Shown: positions 26,419 to 41,462 of the stretch, in pieces
How the letters are laid out: every line of letters begins with the position of its first letter
Position numbering within the stretch: the first letter of the stretch is position 1
From: Elusimicrobiota bacterium
GTDB lineage: Bacteria > Elusimicrobiota > Elusimicrobia > Elusimicrobiales > UBA9959
Reading direction: 5' to 3'
DNA length: 64,000 nucleotides
NCBI GenBank assembly: GCA_009773155.1
Contig: WOVA01000008.1
Location: 1-64,000 of the forward strand
Made by a program: the position numbers and the translations under genes
The notes under the pieces: model-generated
What the model saw: the letters and a program-made list of their open reading frames with translations, nothing else
What the model was told of the DNA's origin: nothing
The model's database searches: none

Positions 26419-28548
26419 ATGCGCCTCAAGCTTTTCCCTAAATTCCTTATCGTGATGTCGCTGGCCGCGCTCGTGCCGCTGGCCCTGCTGGGCTACCGGC
26501 TCATAGACATCGGGCAGCTCGGGGTGAAAACCGCGATACTGGAGCTGCACCTGGGCATGGCCGACAACGTGGCTTCGGCCTACCGTGCCAATATCGATAA
26601 GATCCATTCCAAGGTCGTCTTCCTGCGCGACACCATCGGCCGCATGGACTGGGACGCCAGGCAGGCCGTTCTCACCTCCTTCGTCGACTCCAGCCCGGAA
26701 ATACTCGAGGTCTCGCTGGTCTCGGGCCAGGGCGCCGAGGTCATGAAAGTATTCAGCCCGTCCAGGGGCAAGGATTCCCCGCTCGGTAATTATTCCGGGG
26801 ATCCCGGTTTCCGCTCCGCCCTGGATTCCAAGGTCCGGCATATCTCCATCTCCTCCTCTACCGCCGAAATGGTCTTCTTCTACCCGCTGGGCAACGCCGC
26901 GGCCATGAGGCTGACGGCCGACATCTCCGCTTTCTCCGCCACCGCAGGCGTGAAGACCATCGGCGACACCGGCTACGCCCTGGTGGTAGGCCCCGGCGGC
27001 CGGCCGCTGGCCCTGCCGCCGGGCCTCGCGGAGGAAGAGGCCGCCGGTATCCCGGCCTGGCCCATCGTCGCCGCCGCGCTTGCCGCGCCGGCCGCCGGCT
27101 CCATGGAATACGCCGACCTGGCCGGCAGGGAGCAGATAGGCGCCTACGCGCCCATCCCCGACATCGGCGCCGCCGCCGTGGTGAAGCAGTCCCGCGAAGA
27201 GGCCTATATGTCGGCCATCTTCATGAAGGACCAGGCCGTGTACGCGATACTGTTCTTTGCCGTGCTGGTGATAATAGCCGCGTACCTGCTGAGCCGGCAG
27301 CTCTCCAGGCCCATCATCGACGTCACGCGCGTGGCCGAGCACGTCGCGTCCGGCGACTTCACTCATACCGTTCAGGTGGACACCGGCGACGAGCTCAAGG
27401 ACCTGGGCGAGACCTTCAACAAGATGATACGCCAGCTCAAGACGTATTCCGACATGCAGGTGGACCGCATCATACGCGAGCAGAAGAACACCGAGGCCGT
27501 CCTGTTCTCCACCGAGGACGCCATCGCCATGGCCGACCACGACGGCAAGATACAGCTGGTCAACCGCAAGGCCCGCTCGGTGCTTGGCCTGCCGGCGGGG
27601 GAACTGGTCGGCATGAAATTCCTGGACTCTATCCCGGACGAGAAGGTCAGGGGAGTTGTAGGCGAGGTCATGTCCTCCGAGGAACCCGGCTTTTTCCGGG
27701 AACTGGACCTGTCCAGCGCCACGGCCCGCACAGTCTACCGCTGCACCGCCACGCCGATACGGGACCCCAAGAAGAAGGCGGACCTGGGCCTGCTGGTGGC
27801 GCTGCACGACATAACCCTCGACAAGGAACTGGCCCGCCTCAAGGACGAGTTCCTACACTCCATCACCCACGACCTGCGCAACCCCATGGGCGCGGTCAAG
27901 GGCTTCGTGGAGTTCATGCTCAAGGAGATCCCCGGCCCCATAACCGACGGCCAGCGCAAGATGCTCATCTCCATAGACCGGGCCTCTTTCCGGCTGCTGG
28001 GCATGATAAACAATATCCTGGACGCGGCCAAGATGGAGGCCGGCAAGATGGAGATCTCCCTGGCGCCGGTCAATATGGGCGAGGCCGCCAGGCGCGTGGT
28101 GGAGCTGATGGAGTCGCTCGGCCAGCGCAAGCGCATAAAGTTCGCCGTCGACGCCCCGCCCGACCTGGTGGTCAGCGCCGACCCCGGCCTGATGGAGCGC
28201 ATGTTCACCAACCTGGTCGGCAACGCCATAAAGTTCACGCCCGAGGACGGCACTATAACCCTGCGCGTCTCTTCCGCCGGCGGCATGGTGACGGGGGAAG
28301 TCGAAGATACCGGCGACGGCATACCGCAGGAGTACCTGGGCCGGATCTTCGAGAAGTTCGAGCAGGTCAAGGGACAGAAGGCCGGCGGCACCGGCCTTGG
28401 GCTGACCATCTGCAAGAACGTCGCCGCCTCCCACCTGGGGAAGATCTGGGCGGAGTCCGAGTCCGGCAAGGGCGCAAGATTCATTTTTTCCTTCCCGGCC
28501 GACCTCCGCAAGGACGAGTCGGGCGCGGTGAAGCCGGGGGGTGCGTGA
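26419..28548 (+). CDS. Membrane sensor histidine kinase (Cache-HAMP-PAS-HisKA-HATPase)
   Basis: 709 residues. An N-terminal TM helix is followed by an extracytoplasmic Cache-like sensor (about 35-270), a second TM (YAILFFAVLVIIAAYLLSRQL), a HAMP domain, a PAS domain (about 360-470), the phospho-acceptor H box HSITHDLRNPMGAVKGF and the ATPase N, G1 and G2 boxes (NLVGNAIKFTPEDGTI, EDTGDGIP, GGTGLGLTICKNV). No response regulator is encoded nearby, so it is an orphan here. Its TGA overlaps the ATG of the LysM gene. Confidence 0.92.
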   Translation: MRLKLFPKFLIVMSLAALVPLALLGYRLIDIGQLGVKTAILELHLGMADNVASAYRANIDKIHSKVVFLRDTIGRMDWDARQAVLTSFVDSSPEILEVSLVSGQGAEVMKVFSPSRGKDSPLGNYSGDPGFRSALDSKVRHISISSSTAEMVFFYPLGNAAAMRLTADISAFSATAGVKTIGDTGYALVVGPGGRPLALPPGLAEEEAAGIPAWPIVAAALAAPAAGSMEYADLAGREQIGAYAPIPDIGAAAVVKQSREEAYMSAIFMKDQAVYAILFFAVLVIIAAYLLSRQLSRPIIDVTRVAEHVASGDFTHTVQVDTGDELKDLGETFNKMIRQLKTYSDMQVDRIIREQKNTEAVLFSTEDAIAMADHDGKIQLVNRKARSVLGLPAGELVGMKFLDSIPDEKVRGVVGEVMSSEEPGFFRELDLSSATARTVYRCTATPIRDPKKKADLGLLVALHDITLDKELARLKDEFLHSITHDLRNPMGAVKGFVEFMLKEIPGPITDGQRKMLISIDRASFRLLGMINNILDAAKMEAGKMEISLAPVNMGEAARRVVELMESLGQRKRIKFAVDAPPDLVVSADPGLMERMFTNLVGNAIKFTPEDGTITLRVSSAGGMVTGEVEDTGDGIPQEYLGRIFEKFEQVKGQKAGGTGLGLTICKNVAASHLGKIWAESESGKGARFIFSFPADLRKDESGAVKPGGA

Positions 28549-29678
28549 TGAAGAAACTGCTGTCCGTTCTGCTGGTCCTGGCTTTCCTGTCCTCGCCTTC
28601 TGGCGCGGAGGAGCTGCAGACCATAGTGGTGAAGCCCGGCGACACGCTCTGGAGCATCGCCAATACCTATCTCAAGGACCCCAAGCGCTGGAACGAGATA
28701 CTGCGCTACAACAAGCTGCCTTCGGCCGACCCTTCCATCGCGCTGCCCGGCATGCCGCTCAAGATCCCCGTCCGGCTCATAAAGGAACAGTTCCGCGCCG
28801 CCAAGCTGGTCTACCACATCAACGAGGTCTTCTTCAGGCCCGTCGGCGGGGCCAGGTGGGACGGCGTCAGGACCAACATGGACCTTTACCGCAACGATAC
28901 GCTGCGCACCACGGTCAACGCCAGGGCCGACGTCAAGTTCTATACGGGCGAGGAACTTAACCTGATGCCCAACTCGATGGCCGTGCTGCGTCCGCCGCAG
29001 AAGGACGCCGACGTGCAGCTGCTCTCCGGCGAGATGCGCGGCGTGCGGTCGCGCGTGGTCACGGCCTCGGCCCGCATTATCCCCCGGACCAAGGACACCG
29101 AGTTCGGCGCCAGGATCAAGGACGACCTTACGACGCTCGTGCAGGTCTATAAGGGCCGGGCCGCGGTAGAGGCGCAGGGCAAAGTGGTCGAAGTCCCCGA
29201 GGGCTTCGCCTCGGAGGTCAAGATGGACCTGCCCCCGTCCCAGCCGGTCAAGCTGCCGCCGCTGCCGGAGTTCACCGGCGCGGGGACGCAGTTGGCCCGC
29301 ACCGGCCAGCCGCAGGTCAGAATGAGCGGCAATATCGTCTCTCTCGACGTGAGCAAAGCTCCGCGCGCCGGCGCCGGCGCGCCCGCGCCCAAGGCCGGGG
29401 AGGGCGCCCCCAAGCCCGGCGACGCCTCGGCGATAGACGCCGATGAGATCTCCAAGATGATAACCGTGGCCAACCCGGTGCAGGGCTACCATATACAGGC
29501 CGCGAAAGACCAGGCCTTTTCGAATATAGCGCTCGACCGGACCTACGACGTTTTCGACCGCATCGACCTGTCCGATTATCTGCCGGCGGGGACCTACTGG
29601 GTGCGCATATCGTATATCGACCTCCTGGGCTTCGAGGGAAAATTCAACGCGCCGCGGCAGGTCACCGTCCGGAAGTGA
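28548..29678 (+). CDS. Secreted LysM-FecR domain protein
   Basis: 376 residues. Signal peptide KKLLSVLLVLAFLSSPSGA, then a LysM peptidoglycan-binding module (VVKPGDTLWSIANTYLKDPKRWNEI, in part), a FecR-like beta domain (about 110-220, VNARADVKFYTGEEL...VVTASARI), an Ala/Pro/Gly linker and a C-terminal beta-sandwich repeat. The combination is common in deltaproteobacterial and Elusimicrobiota-type envelopes. Translational overlap with the histidine kinase suggests it could feed wall signals to it; that is inference. Confidence 0.82.
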   Translation: MKKLLSVLLVLAFLSSPSGAEELQTIVVKPGDTLWSIANTYLKDPKRWNEILRYNKLPSADPSIALPGMPLKIPVRLIKEQFRAAKLVYHINEVFFRPVGGARWDGVRTNMDLYRNDTLRTTVNARADVKFYTGEELNLMPNSMAVLRPPQKDADVQLLSGEMRGVRSRVVTASARIIPRTKDTEFGARIKDDLTTLVQVYKGRAAVEAQGKVVEVPEGFASEVKMDLPPSQPVKLPPLPEFTGAGTQLARTGQPQVRMSGNIVSLDVSKAPRAGAGAPAPKAGEGAPKPGDASAIDADEISKMITVANPVQGYHIQAAKDQAFSNIALDRTYDVFDRIDLSDYLPAGTYWVRISYIDLLGFEGKFNAPRQVTVRK

Positions 29679-29700: not shown

Positions 29701-29729
29701 TTGACAAGTCAAGGTCTATCTGCTATACT
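29701..29729 (+). promoter_or_regulatory. Consensus promoter of a putative small RNA
   Basis: TTGACA at 29701-29706, exactly 17 nt, TATACT at 29724-29729. This is the best sigma-70 promoter in the window, and no ORF follows it before the terminator. Confidence 0.85.
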
Positions 29730-29735
29730 AGCTCT

Positions 29736-29862
29736 GTAAATGGTTCTGAGGGAGGCTGCGGCGGCCCGCAGGTCGTCCGGCGGGCGTGCCCTGTGCGGTG
29801 CAGTCGTGTGGAGGGAGCACGAAAGGCGTAGGCGCAATCCTTTCGTGCTCCCTCTCTTTTTG
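29736..29862 (+). ncRNA. Putative small RNA, about 126 nt, own promoter and terminator
   Basis: The transcript should begin near 29736 and end in the T-run after a perfect 16-bp terminator stem (29811-29826 with 29839-29854, 12-nt loop, then TCTTTTT). The interior has GC-rich hairpins such as CTGCGGCGGCCCGCAG near 29756-29771. I tested it by eye against SRP RNA (no GGAAGGA loop), 6S RNA, RNase P and tmRNA without a match. It could instead be an attenuated leader of the TPR gene at 30006, but a complete terminator and a family C hairpin stand between them. Confidence 0.7.
29811..29862 (+). terminator. Strong intrinsic terminator of the small RNA
   Basis: A 16-bp perfect stem GAGGGAGCACGAAAGG with its complement, 12-nt loop, then TCTTTTT. 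Confidence 0.9.
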
Positions 29863-29876
29863 GGATAGGGGGGATA

Positions 29877-29970
29877 GGGGACGCTGATTACTAAATGACT
29901 AATTGCGGGCGGCCCTTCCCGGTTTATAGGCTAAATGGTGACAATTAGTCATTTAGTAATCAGCGTCCCC
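29877..29970. repeat. Family C intergenic hairpin, perfect 29-bp arms
   Basis: Arms 29877-29905 and 29942-29970 are perfect inverse complements (GGGGACGCTGATTACTAAAT...), spaced by 36 nt. With the small RNA unit, it accounts for the 327 bases between the LysM gene and the TPR gene. Confidence 0.9.
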
Positions 29971-30005
29971 TTGTTAAACTAATCTTTAATTAATTAAATG
30001 TTCAT

Positions 30006-31691
30006 GTGAAACTAGCCCTGCCAGCGGCTTTTGCCGCGCTCTGCGTCCTTGCTCCCGCCGCTTTCCCGGCGCTGCCGGCGGCGCCGCCTCCCGGCGAGCG
30101 CACTATCTGGGACGAGATAATGAAGGAGCAGAGCCGCATCAATCTCCGCAAGGGCTACGCGCTGATGAACGCCGGCGACCACGCCGCCGCTGCCGCCGAA
30201 TTTTCCCGGGCGCTGGCCAAATCCCCTGCGGATCCCGACGCCATACTATTATACGGCTCGAGCCTTTACTGGCTGGGCGAGGTGGACCGCGCGATAGGCG
30301 AATACCTGCGCGTAATAGAGATGGCGCCGTCCAACGCGCTGGCCTGGCAGCTCAAGGGCATAGCTCTCGCCTGGAAAGGCGACGCGGAGGGGGCACTGGA
30401 AGATTTCCTGAAGGCGCAGAAGTTCGACCCCGTCCGCTCCGACGTCAAGATGAACATAGGCTCGGTCTATCACTCGTTGGGACTCTACGGCTCGGCCCTG
30501 GAATATTTCCGCGCCGCGGCCGCCTCCGATCCGGAGAACCCGCTCTACCATTACCAGCTCGGCCTGCTCTATTCGCGCCTTGGCCGCAACGCCGAGGGCA
30601 AGGCTTCGCTGCGCGCGGCGCTCAAGTACTTCCGTTCCTACGAGGACGCCATGCTGGAGCTGGCTGTGCTCGAGGAGCGCGACGGGAACCTGGCGGCCGC
30701 CGTCTCCCTCTACCGCGACGCGCTGCGCATAAAGCCGCGCGATTCCGTGGCCCGGCTGCGGCTGGGCCTGGCCCTGCTCAAGCAGGGAAAGACCGGGGGC
30801 CTCGCCGGCGAGCTCGAGCCCGCCTTCCTGCTCAGCCCGCGCAACGAGAAGGGAGGTATCTCGCTTTCGATGTCCTACGCCGGCGGCAGGAGCCGGGAGG
30901 ACGAAGCCGGGGATGGCCGGATACTTTCTTCGCTGCGCCGTCTGCCCGCGGATGAGGAAGTCCGGGTGCGGCTGGAGCTCATCAGGCTGCCGCGGCTGGA
31001 AACCAAAGCCTCAGGCGCGGAATCTCTCTCCGGCGCGCTGGCCCGCGCGGTGGAGCGCCCCCGTCTTTCCTACGTCAAAAAGGAGTACGCCGTGGCCGCC
31101 GGCGCGGCGGGCCGCTCCGCGCGGCTGAAGGAGACGGCCGACGAGATAGAGCGCCTGATCGCCGCCGCCTCGGCCGAGGGCGACGTAAAAGTCAGCCTGG
31201 ACATAGAGACCATAAAGCCGGCCGCCAAGACCGAGGCCCGCGTGGTCTACGAGCCCCGCTCCGTAGGCAACGACATGGGGCTATGGGTGGTGGGCAATAA
31301 CTGGCTCGAGAACGTGGAGGAGGCGCTGGCCGAGATGAACGACCTGCCGCAGGCCGCCGGCTCCCCGGGCGCTGCCGCGCTGCTGCGGGGGCTCGGGTTC
31401 CTGCTCGGAGGAGAGCATTCGCTCGCGGCCGAGAGTTTCGGCGCGGCCGCCGGCCCGTACCGGCATCTGTCGCTGCTCGGTTTATGCGTGGCCGCCGTTC
31501 AGAAGGGTGACGAACCTGGCGCCCTGGGGCTGGCGAAAGAAGCCCTCGCCGCAGCGCCGGGCAGCCTGGTCGCGAAAGAGAACCTGCGCTGGCTCGAAAA
31601 GACGGAGAAGCCCCCGGCCGCGCGCAGAGCTTGCGGCACCGACTGCGGGCATAGCCGCCCTGATCCGCCGGGCGGGGACAAGCCCGAATGA
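30006..31691 (+). CDS. Secreted TPR protein with a family B element at its C-terminus
   Basis: 561 residues from GTG 30006 (the nearby ATG at 30004 runs into a stop). Signal peptide KLALPAAFAALCVLAPAAFPALPA, then TPR units from about residue 47 to 270 (for example ALMNAGDHAAAAAEFSRALAKSP), a linker, and further helical repeats to 540. The last 20 residues (GTDCGHSRPDPPGG...) come from a family B repeat. No Shine-Dalgarno is visible. It overlaps the THEP1-like gene in ATGA. Function is unknown; TPR arrays usually mediate protein contacts. Confidence 0.75.
   Translation: MKLALPAAFAALCVLAPAAFPALPAAPPPGERTIWDEIMKEQSRINLRKGYALMNAGDHAAAAAEFSRALAKSPADPDAILLYGSSLYWLGEVDRAIGEYLRVIEMAPSNALAWQLKGIALAWKGDAEGALEDFLKAQKFDPVRSDVKMNIGSVYHSLGLYGSALEYFRAAAASDPENPLYHYQLGLLYSRLGRNAEGKASLRAALKYFRSYEDAMLELAVLEERDGNLAAAVSLYRDALRIKPRDSVARLRLGLALLKQGKTGGLAGELEPAFLLSPRNEKGGISLSMSYAGGRSREDEAGDGRILSSLRRLPADEEVRVRLELIRLPRLETKASGAESLSGALARAVERPRLSYVKKEYAVAAGAAGRSARLKETADEIERLIAAASAEGDVKVSLDIETIKPAAKTEARVVYEPRSVGNDMGLWVVGNNWLENVEEALAEMNDLPQAAGSPGAAALLRGLGFLLGGEHSLAAESFGAAAGPYRHLSLLGLCVAAVQKGDEPGALGLAKEALAAAPGSLVAKENLRWLEKTEKPPAARRACGTDCGHSRPDPPGGDKPE
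31635..31674 (+). repeat. Family B element, copy 1 (C-terminus of TPR protein)
   Basis: GGCACCGACTGCGG, 5 nt, CCGCCCTGATCCG: read as GTDCGHSRPDPPGG in the same frame as the copies at 55348 and 63924. Upstream GCGCAGAGC is also shared with the copy at 55348. Confidence 0.8.
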
Positions 31692-41433: not shown

Positions 41434-41462
41434 TTGCCAACCGGCGAATATATAAATATAAT
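41434..41462 (+). promoter_or_regulatory. pilB promoter
   Basis: TTGCCA at 41434-41439, 17 nt, TATAAT at 41457-41462, 48 nt upstream of the pilB ATG. Confidence 0.65.

Follow-up and report, generated by a model that had tools for sequence, protein, structure and literature searches.

Architecture of the locus

The window analysed here is a stretch of 64,000 nucleotides from an Elusimicrobiota assembly (2.76 Mb, 93 contigs). Two genes of the same strand, for a LysM/FecR-domain protein and a TPR-repeat protein, flank an intergenic region with the following features.

28545..29678, + strand: upstream neighbour, exported protein with LysM and FecR domains (Pfam PF01476, PF04773)
29701..29729, + strand: sigma-70 promoter with an extended -10, conserved across genera
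29701-29706, + strand: -35 box TTGACA, perfect consensus
29701..29712, + strand: palindromic element TTGACAAGTCAA, putative operator with arms TTGAC/GTCAA, overlapping the -35 box
29721-29722, + strand: TG of the extended -10, one base upstream of the -10 box
29724-29729, + strand: -10 box TATACT, one mismatch, 17-nt spacer to the -35 box
29736..29861, + strand: small non-coding RNA of ~126 nt, its start placed from the -10 box and its end from the T-run
29746..29756, + strand: conserved 5' motif CUGAGGGAGGC with the core GAGGGAGGC, candidate interaction site
29811..29854, + strand: intrinsic-terminator hairpin of 16 bp, stem 29811-29826 / 29839-29854, all pairs perfect
29831-29838, + strand: conserved segment GGCGCAAU inside the terminator loop
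29855..29861, + strand: T-rich terminator tail
30006..31691, + strand: downstream neighbour, TPR-repeat protein (Pfam TPR families), apparently with its own promoter

The promoter TTGACA-17-TATACT and the perfect 16-bp terminator stem, followed by its T-rich tail, lie where the first-pass annotation had placed them. Its description of the promoter as the best sigma-70 site in the window holds in part: the score is indeed 11/12, and in the 20 kb scanned this is the sole 11/12 site among nine sites scoring at least 9/12 (2.5 such sites per 20 kb being expected in dinucleotide-shuffled sequence), but on the hexamers it is tied with a site at 41434 (TTGCCA-17-TATAAT, 11/12), which has no TG. The terminator loop is CGTAGGCGCAAT, and the consensus terminator scan missed the hairpin because the loop limit of that scan is 8 nt. 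The predicted folding energy of the segment 29736-29862 is -61.5 kcal/mol, compared to -50.8 in shuffles (z = -2.95). The same annotation had seen no open reading frame between the promoter and the terminator; this was not strictly accurate, as the window sequence contains a 42-codon ATG frame starting from 29740, though its start codon is absent in the congeners.

Conservation and independence of the RNA

With a covariance model derived from ten sequences, we searched 59 genomes of the Elusimicrobiota family and found homologues in 18 of them, covering 10 of 13 genera; the many-genome search ran with strict filters, so that divergent homologues (for instance, in genus g4) may be missed, and the genomes mostly are MAGs, any of which may seem to lack the RNA because its assembly is incomplete. 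In 248 genomes of the phylum, the model yielded no convincing homologue outside the family, all extra matches being weak. Three candidates outside the family (L067, L068 and L069; E from 6.6e-4 to 5e-3) have neither the promoter nor the 5' motif and were rejected as chance matches. Matches in Paraburkholderia, Actinomycetospora and Granulicella, obtained by an exact motif search in named genomes, are presumed to be chance 20-mers.

A search at the DNA level recovered the gene from three congeners (90-92% identity) and pieces of it from other genera in the family. Identity within the genus is 94-98% over the RNA and 87-97% over the promoter, compared to 75-83% over the adjoining 340 bases in the LysM gene and, mostly, about 45-75% over the flanking intergenic DNA. 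The RNA has changed more slowly than the coding sequence beside it, and this level of identity against less conserved flanks, together with the 18 homologues in the family, argues decisively against chance.

Across the ten genera, the promoter, the 5' motif and the terminator are kept, and the middle of the RNA varies both in sequence and in length. The core GAGGGAGGC is invariant in the A2 alignment and present in 16 of the 18 homologues; it is altered in L054 and L056, the two members of genus g11, whose status as homologues we consider provisional. The most conserved structural part is the terminator hairpin, and its primary sequence, the loop segment included, is kept beyond the needs of a terminator. 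In the 18-sequence alignment, which was fitted to the covariance model and hence leans towards the helix, 98.3% of cells in the terminator helix are paired and 9 of 16 pairs have double-sided changes, which none of 500 shuffles equalled. An independent MAFFT alignment of ten sequences gave 98.1% pairing and five pairs with double-sided changes.

In most genomes the RNA is situated between the LysM/FecR gene, syntenic at 14 homologous loci, and the TPR gene. The copies predicted by the first-pass annotation upstream of TPR genes were seen in 15 of 18 genomes, just upstream and on the same strand. The RNA and the TPR gene nevertheless occur separately. Genomes without the RNA, those of genus g4 and G022 among them, retain the TPR gene, with the LysM gene directly next to it; be the RNA present or absent, a TATAAT-like box commonly lies a few bases upstream of the TPR start codon. 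Vice versa, the RNA has no adjoining TPR gene in G007, G013 and G021, and is thus independent of the downstream gene. In G007, a convergent gene seems, from the other strand, to have its 3' end downstream of the RNA; by eye, we tentatively read this gene as gatB; in G013 and G021, neither a LysM nor a TPR gene occurs within 1.5 kb.

The RNA thus has a promoter and a terminator of its own within intergenic DNA, both conserved in the homologues, and across the 18 homologues there is no conserved start codon or frame. With the conserved 5' motif and the covarying terminator, these observations agree with the initial description of a stand-alone small RNA gene, and we are highly confident that it is a real and previously uncatalogued one.

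As to known families, an all-Rfam scan of the window gave nothing here at gathering thresholds, and a scan of the segment at E up to 10 returned only implausible matches. The proposed Infernal check against Rfam therefore gives no significant match to a known family, and the impression, originally gained by eye, that the RNA is not SRP, 6S, tmRNA or RNase P is upheld by covariance models in both scans. A limited literature search found no described Elusimicrobiota small RNA.

The common partners of small RNAs were sought in the same group. Hfq (PF17209), the defining partner of the Hfq-dependent sRNA class, was found in 0 of 59 family genomes, the positive controls being found. CsrA (PF02599), required for the CsrB/RsmZ family, was detected in one of 41 relatives and not in G000, with positive named-genome controls; the sole positive relative is a genome without the detected RNA. 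The 6S RNA (RF00013) was absent at the gathering threshold, at E up to 10 and across the 59 family genomes, again with positive named-genome controls. A conserved, strongly promoted sRNA in bacteria where Hfq and 6S are undetected and CsrA is nearly absent thus offers an entry point to RNA-based control that operates without its usual partners.

The palindromic promoter element and its putative regulon

The palindrome, within which the -35 box is located, is present at nearly all homologues of the RNA. Its position suggests that expression of the RNA, proposed in the first-pass annotation to be abundant, is regulated, and not simply constitutive. That annotation had noted neither the palindrome nor the 5' motif nor the sister RNAs that follow the element elsewhere. 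In most family-f1 genomes tested, TTGACAWGTCAA occurs 3-9 times versus 0-1 in the sister family f2, these counts being below the raw rows where TTGACATGTCAA was reported on both strands; G009 (g7) has zero sites. The reversed control of TTGACAWGTCAA produced one match in 15 genomes. Each family genome contains 0-2 copies of the full promoter, that is, the element together with TCTGCTATA; the reversed control of this longer sequence gave no match. The palindrome was not found in the literature searched.

In the window's genus, the palindrome precedes at least six units, this sRNA among them. The other units observed behind it, the first five in this genus and the remainder in other genomes, are as follows.

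L144, - strand: leader hairpin with a U-tract, then a predicted membrane protein without a Pfam match
L143:1640-1950, + strand: GCGGT-rich RNA of about 300 nt with a strong terminator
L140 (G000:C38 near 10074), - strand: GCGGT-rich RNA of about 300 nt with a strong terminator
L142: membrane protein
L141:1191-1269, - strand: c-di-GMP-I-GGC riboswitch, then an outer-membrane protein
L024:1408-1497, - strand, another genus: c-di-GMP-I riboswitch
L147, L155: further sRNA, then a protein beginning MGKFVECVPNFSEGRDLS
L148, L152: clostripain-family protease, trypsin-like protease

At L141, a separate TTGACA...TCTGCTATAAT promoter closely follows the palindrome; this arrangement argues for an operator rather than a mere component of the -35 box. 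The RNAs of L143 and L140 are apparently non-coding, conserved in G001 and G002, contain 9-16 GCGGT repeats in 400 nt and have no Rfam match. The L144-type leader hairpin is possibly an attenuator or an sRNA.

Several short RNAs recur behind these promoters. The leader hairpin ACUUU-CCUUGAAC...GUGUYAAGG-AAAGU with a U-tract was also seen in L018, L019, L022, L090, L096, L097 and L099. A short RNA with a GCGAAAACCCGCCAAAAGCGGGTTTTCGC-like terminator follows the same promoter in L017, L091, L105, L108, L109, L113, L147 and L155, often before the gene starting MGKFVECVPNFSEGRDLS. In genus g4 (L100, L101, L102, L103, L106), the same promoter precedes a roughly 65-nt hairpin RNA, GGGYCCGCRGCCCCUYUCAGUGGGUU...GGGCCC.

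The c-di-GMP-I riboswitch leaders of these bacteria have the palindromic element and a TCTGCTATA-type promoter in common with the present RNA, but they are cis-acting aptamers, whereas the RNA is free of aptamers and does not depend on a gene downstream. The presence of riboswitches behind the palindrome in two genera hints that the regulon may be tied to c-di-GMP signalling. Rather speculatively, one transcription factor acting on TTGACAWGTCAA could control unrelated non-coding RNAs along with exported and outer-membrane proteins, making up a post-transcriptional network that works without Hfq and CsrA and is linked to c-di-GMP and the cell surface; its non-coding set, equally conjectural, would comprise this sRNA, the two GCGGT-repeat RNAs, other short sRNAs, leader hairpins and c-di-GMP-I leaders. 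The common palindrome makes such a regulon testable and offers a route to the regulator and its signal.

Possible modes of action

The best reading of the locus, which we hold with a little less than even confidence, is a stand-alone, operator-controlled, Hfq-independent trans-acting sRNA. Pairing with mRNA is the default mode for such sRNA genes, and base-pairing through the 5' motif is somewhat less likely than not, no target having been found. Starting from what is seen directly, that is, the sequence anatomy, the conservation and covariation, the separateness from the TPR gene and the common element, one may envisage the following course. RNA polymerase with the housekeeping sigma factor would initiate near 29736, and a dedicated transcription factor, controlling a small regulon, probably binds TTGACAAGTCAA on the -35 box. 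The conserved hairpin would end transcription near 29861 and would also shield the 3' end. As the most likely action, the conserved purine-rich 5' segment CUGAGGGAGGC would then pair, independently of Hfq, with pyrimidine-rich stretches of mRNAs, perhaps those of co-regulated exported proteins, whose translation or decay would be altered.

Like trans-encoded bacterial sRNAs with sigma-70 promoters and intrinsic terminators, the RNA is intergenic, has its own promoter, falls within about 100-150 nt, carries a short near-invariant segment and has a family-restricted distribution. Unlike them, it occurs in a family without detectable Hfq, its conserved segment is G-rich and not C-rich, and the terminator hairpin itself is conserved in sequence.

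The search for targets, conducted in G000-G003, revealed neither enrichment nor conservation of seed complements. With the gene itself excluded, there are 1, 0, 4 and 3 perfect complements, GCCTCCCTCAG, in G000, G001, G002 and G003, respectively, and 0-3 in the reversed controls; the extra sites are mostly non-homologous. Duplexes with seven local candidates score no further than about 2 sd from shuffles, and predicted folds leave the 5' motif unpaired only in part (mean unpaired probability 0.08-0.68). A GCCTCCC complement near the TPR start was discarded as a target site, being present only in the window and L046. A closing helix between GAGGGAG and a pyrimidine tail was likewise rejected: it is formed inconsistently, in some folds (L040, L043, L048), and the invariant GGC is left unpaired by anything.

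The main rival to mRNA pairing is a protein partner: GAGGGAGGC and the hairpin with the GGCGCAAU loop would bind a protein, which would be titrated or guided in the manner of CsrB/RsmZ, the protein being a different one. We regard this as unlikely, albeit deserving serious attention. It would account for a hairpin and a loop segment conserved beyond the needs of termination and for a 5' motif that is near-invariant yet has no complementary targets found, and it is in line with the 9-16 GCGGT repeats per 400 nt carried by the sister RNAs that the element precedes in the genus of the window. On the other hand, the motif occurs once per RNA, and the known partner CsrA is missing, apart from the one relative in which the RNA was not detected. 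The likeness to CsrB/RsmZ-type RNAs is thus limited to GGA-bearing purine motifs and possible protein titration; instead of an array of GGA hairpin loops there is one unpaired candidate motif, and CsrA was not found in the host.

It is improbable that the RNA is a divergent 6S-type RNA binding RNA polymerase. That role is unfilled, given that Rfam 6S was detected in none of the family genomes, and both are small stand-alone non-coding RNAs; still, there is no covariance-model match even at E up to 10 and no long bulged hairpin, nor do the 16 homologues folded consistently pair their 5' and 3' ends in a long helix with a central bubble. Moreover, the RNA is shorter than 6S, and its distribution is patchy, many nearly complete family genomes being without it.

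Just as poor a candidate is an attenuator- or riboswitch-type 5' leader of the TPR gene with the hairpin serving as a conditional terminator, as the position of the RNA in 15 of 18 genomes might suggest. The TPR gene survives without the RNA, usually with its own TATAAT-like box, and the RNA occurs without a TPR neighbour, in G007 seemingly followed by a convergent gene, so that it is not always upstream of a regulated gene as a cis-leader would be. Besides, no conserved antiterminator helix accompanies the terminator, which is the most conserved structural part.

The remaining alternative, an mRNA of a small protein encoded by the ATG frame from 29740 of the window sequence, is very improbable, as G001-G003 lack the start codon, the homologues have no matching frame, and the hairpin loop contains frame-shifting indels. 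A Shine-Dalgarno sequence of a short frame was also dismissed, no conserved start codon being at a usable distance.

Plant and animal microRNA models gave shape-only matches, far below cut-offs, to the hairpin and to an inverted repeat downstream. At the edge of the window, positions 19-95 match a group II intron fragment in Rfam. The inverted repeat (29876-29971; GGGGACGCTGATTACTAAATGACTAATTG...) is near-perfect, 96 nt long and MITE- or REP-like; it is missing at that place in L011 and L012, and at least a dozen partial copies are present in the genome.
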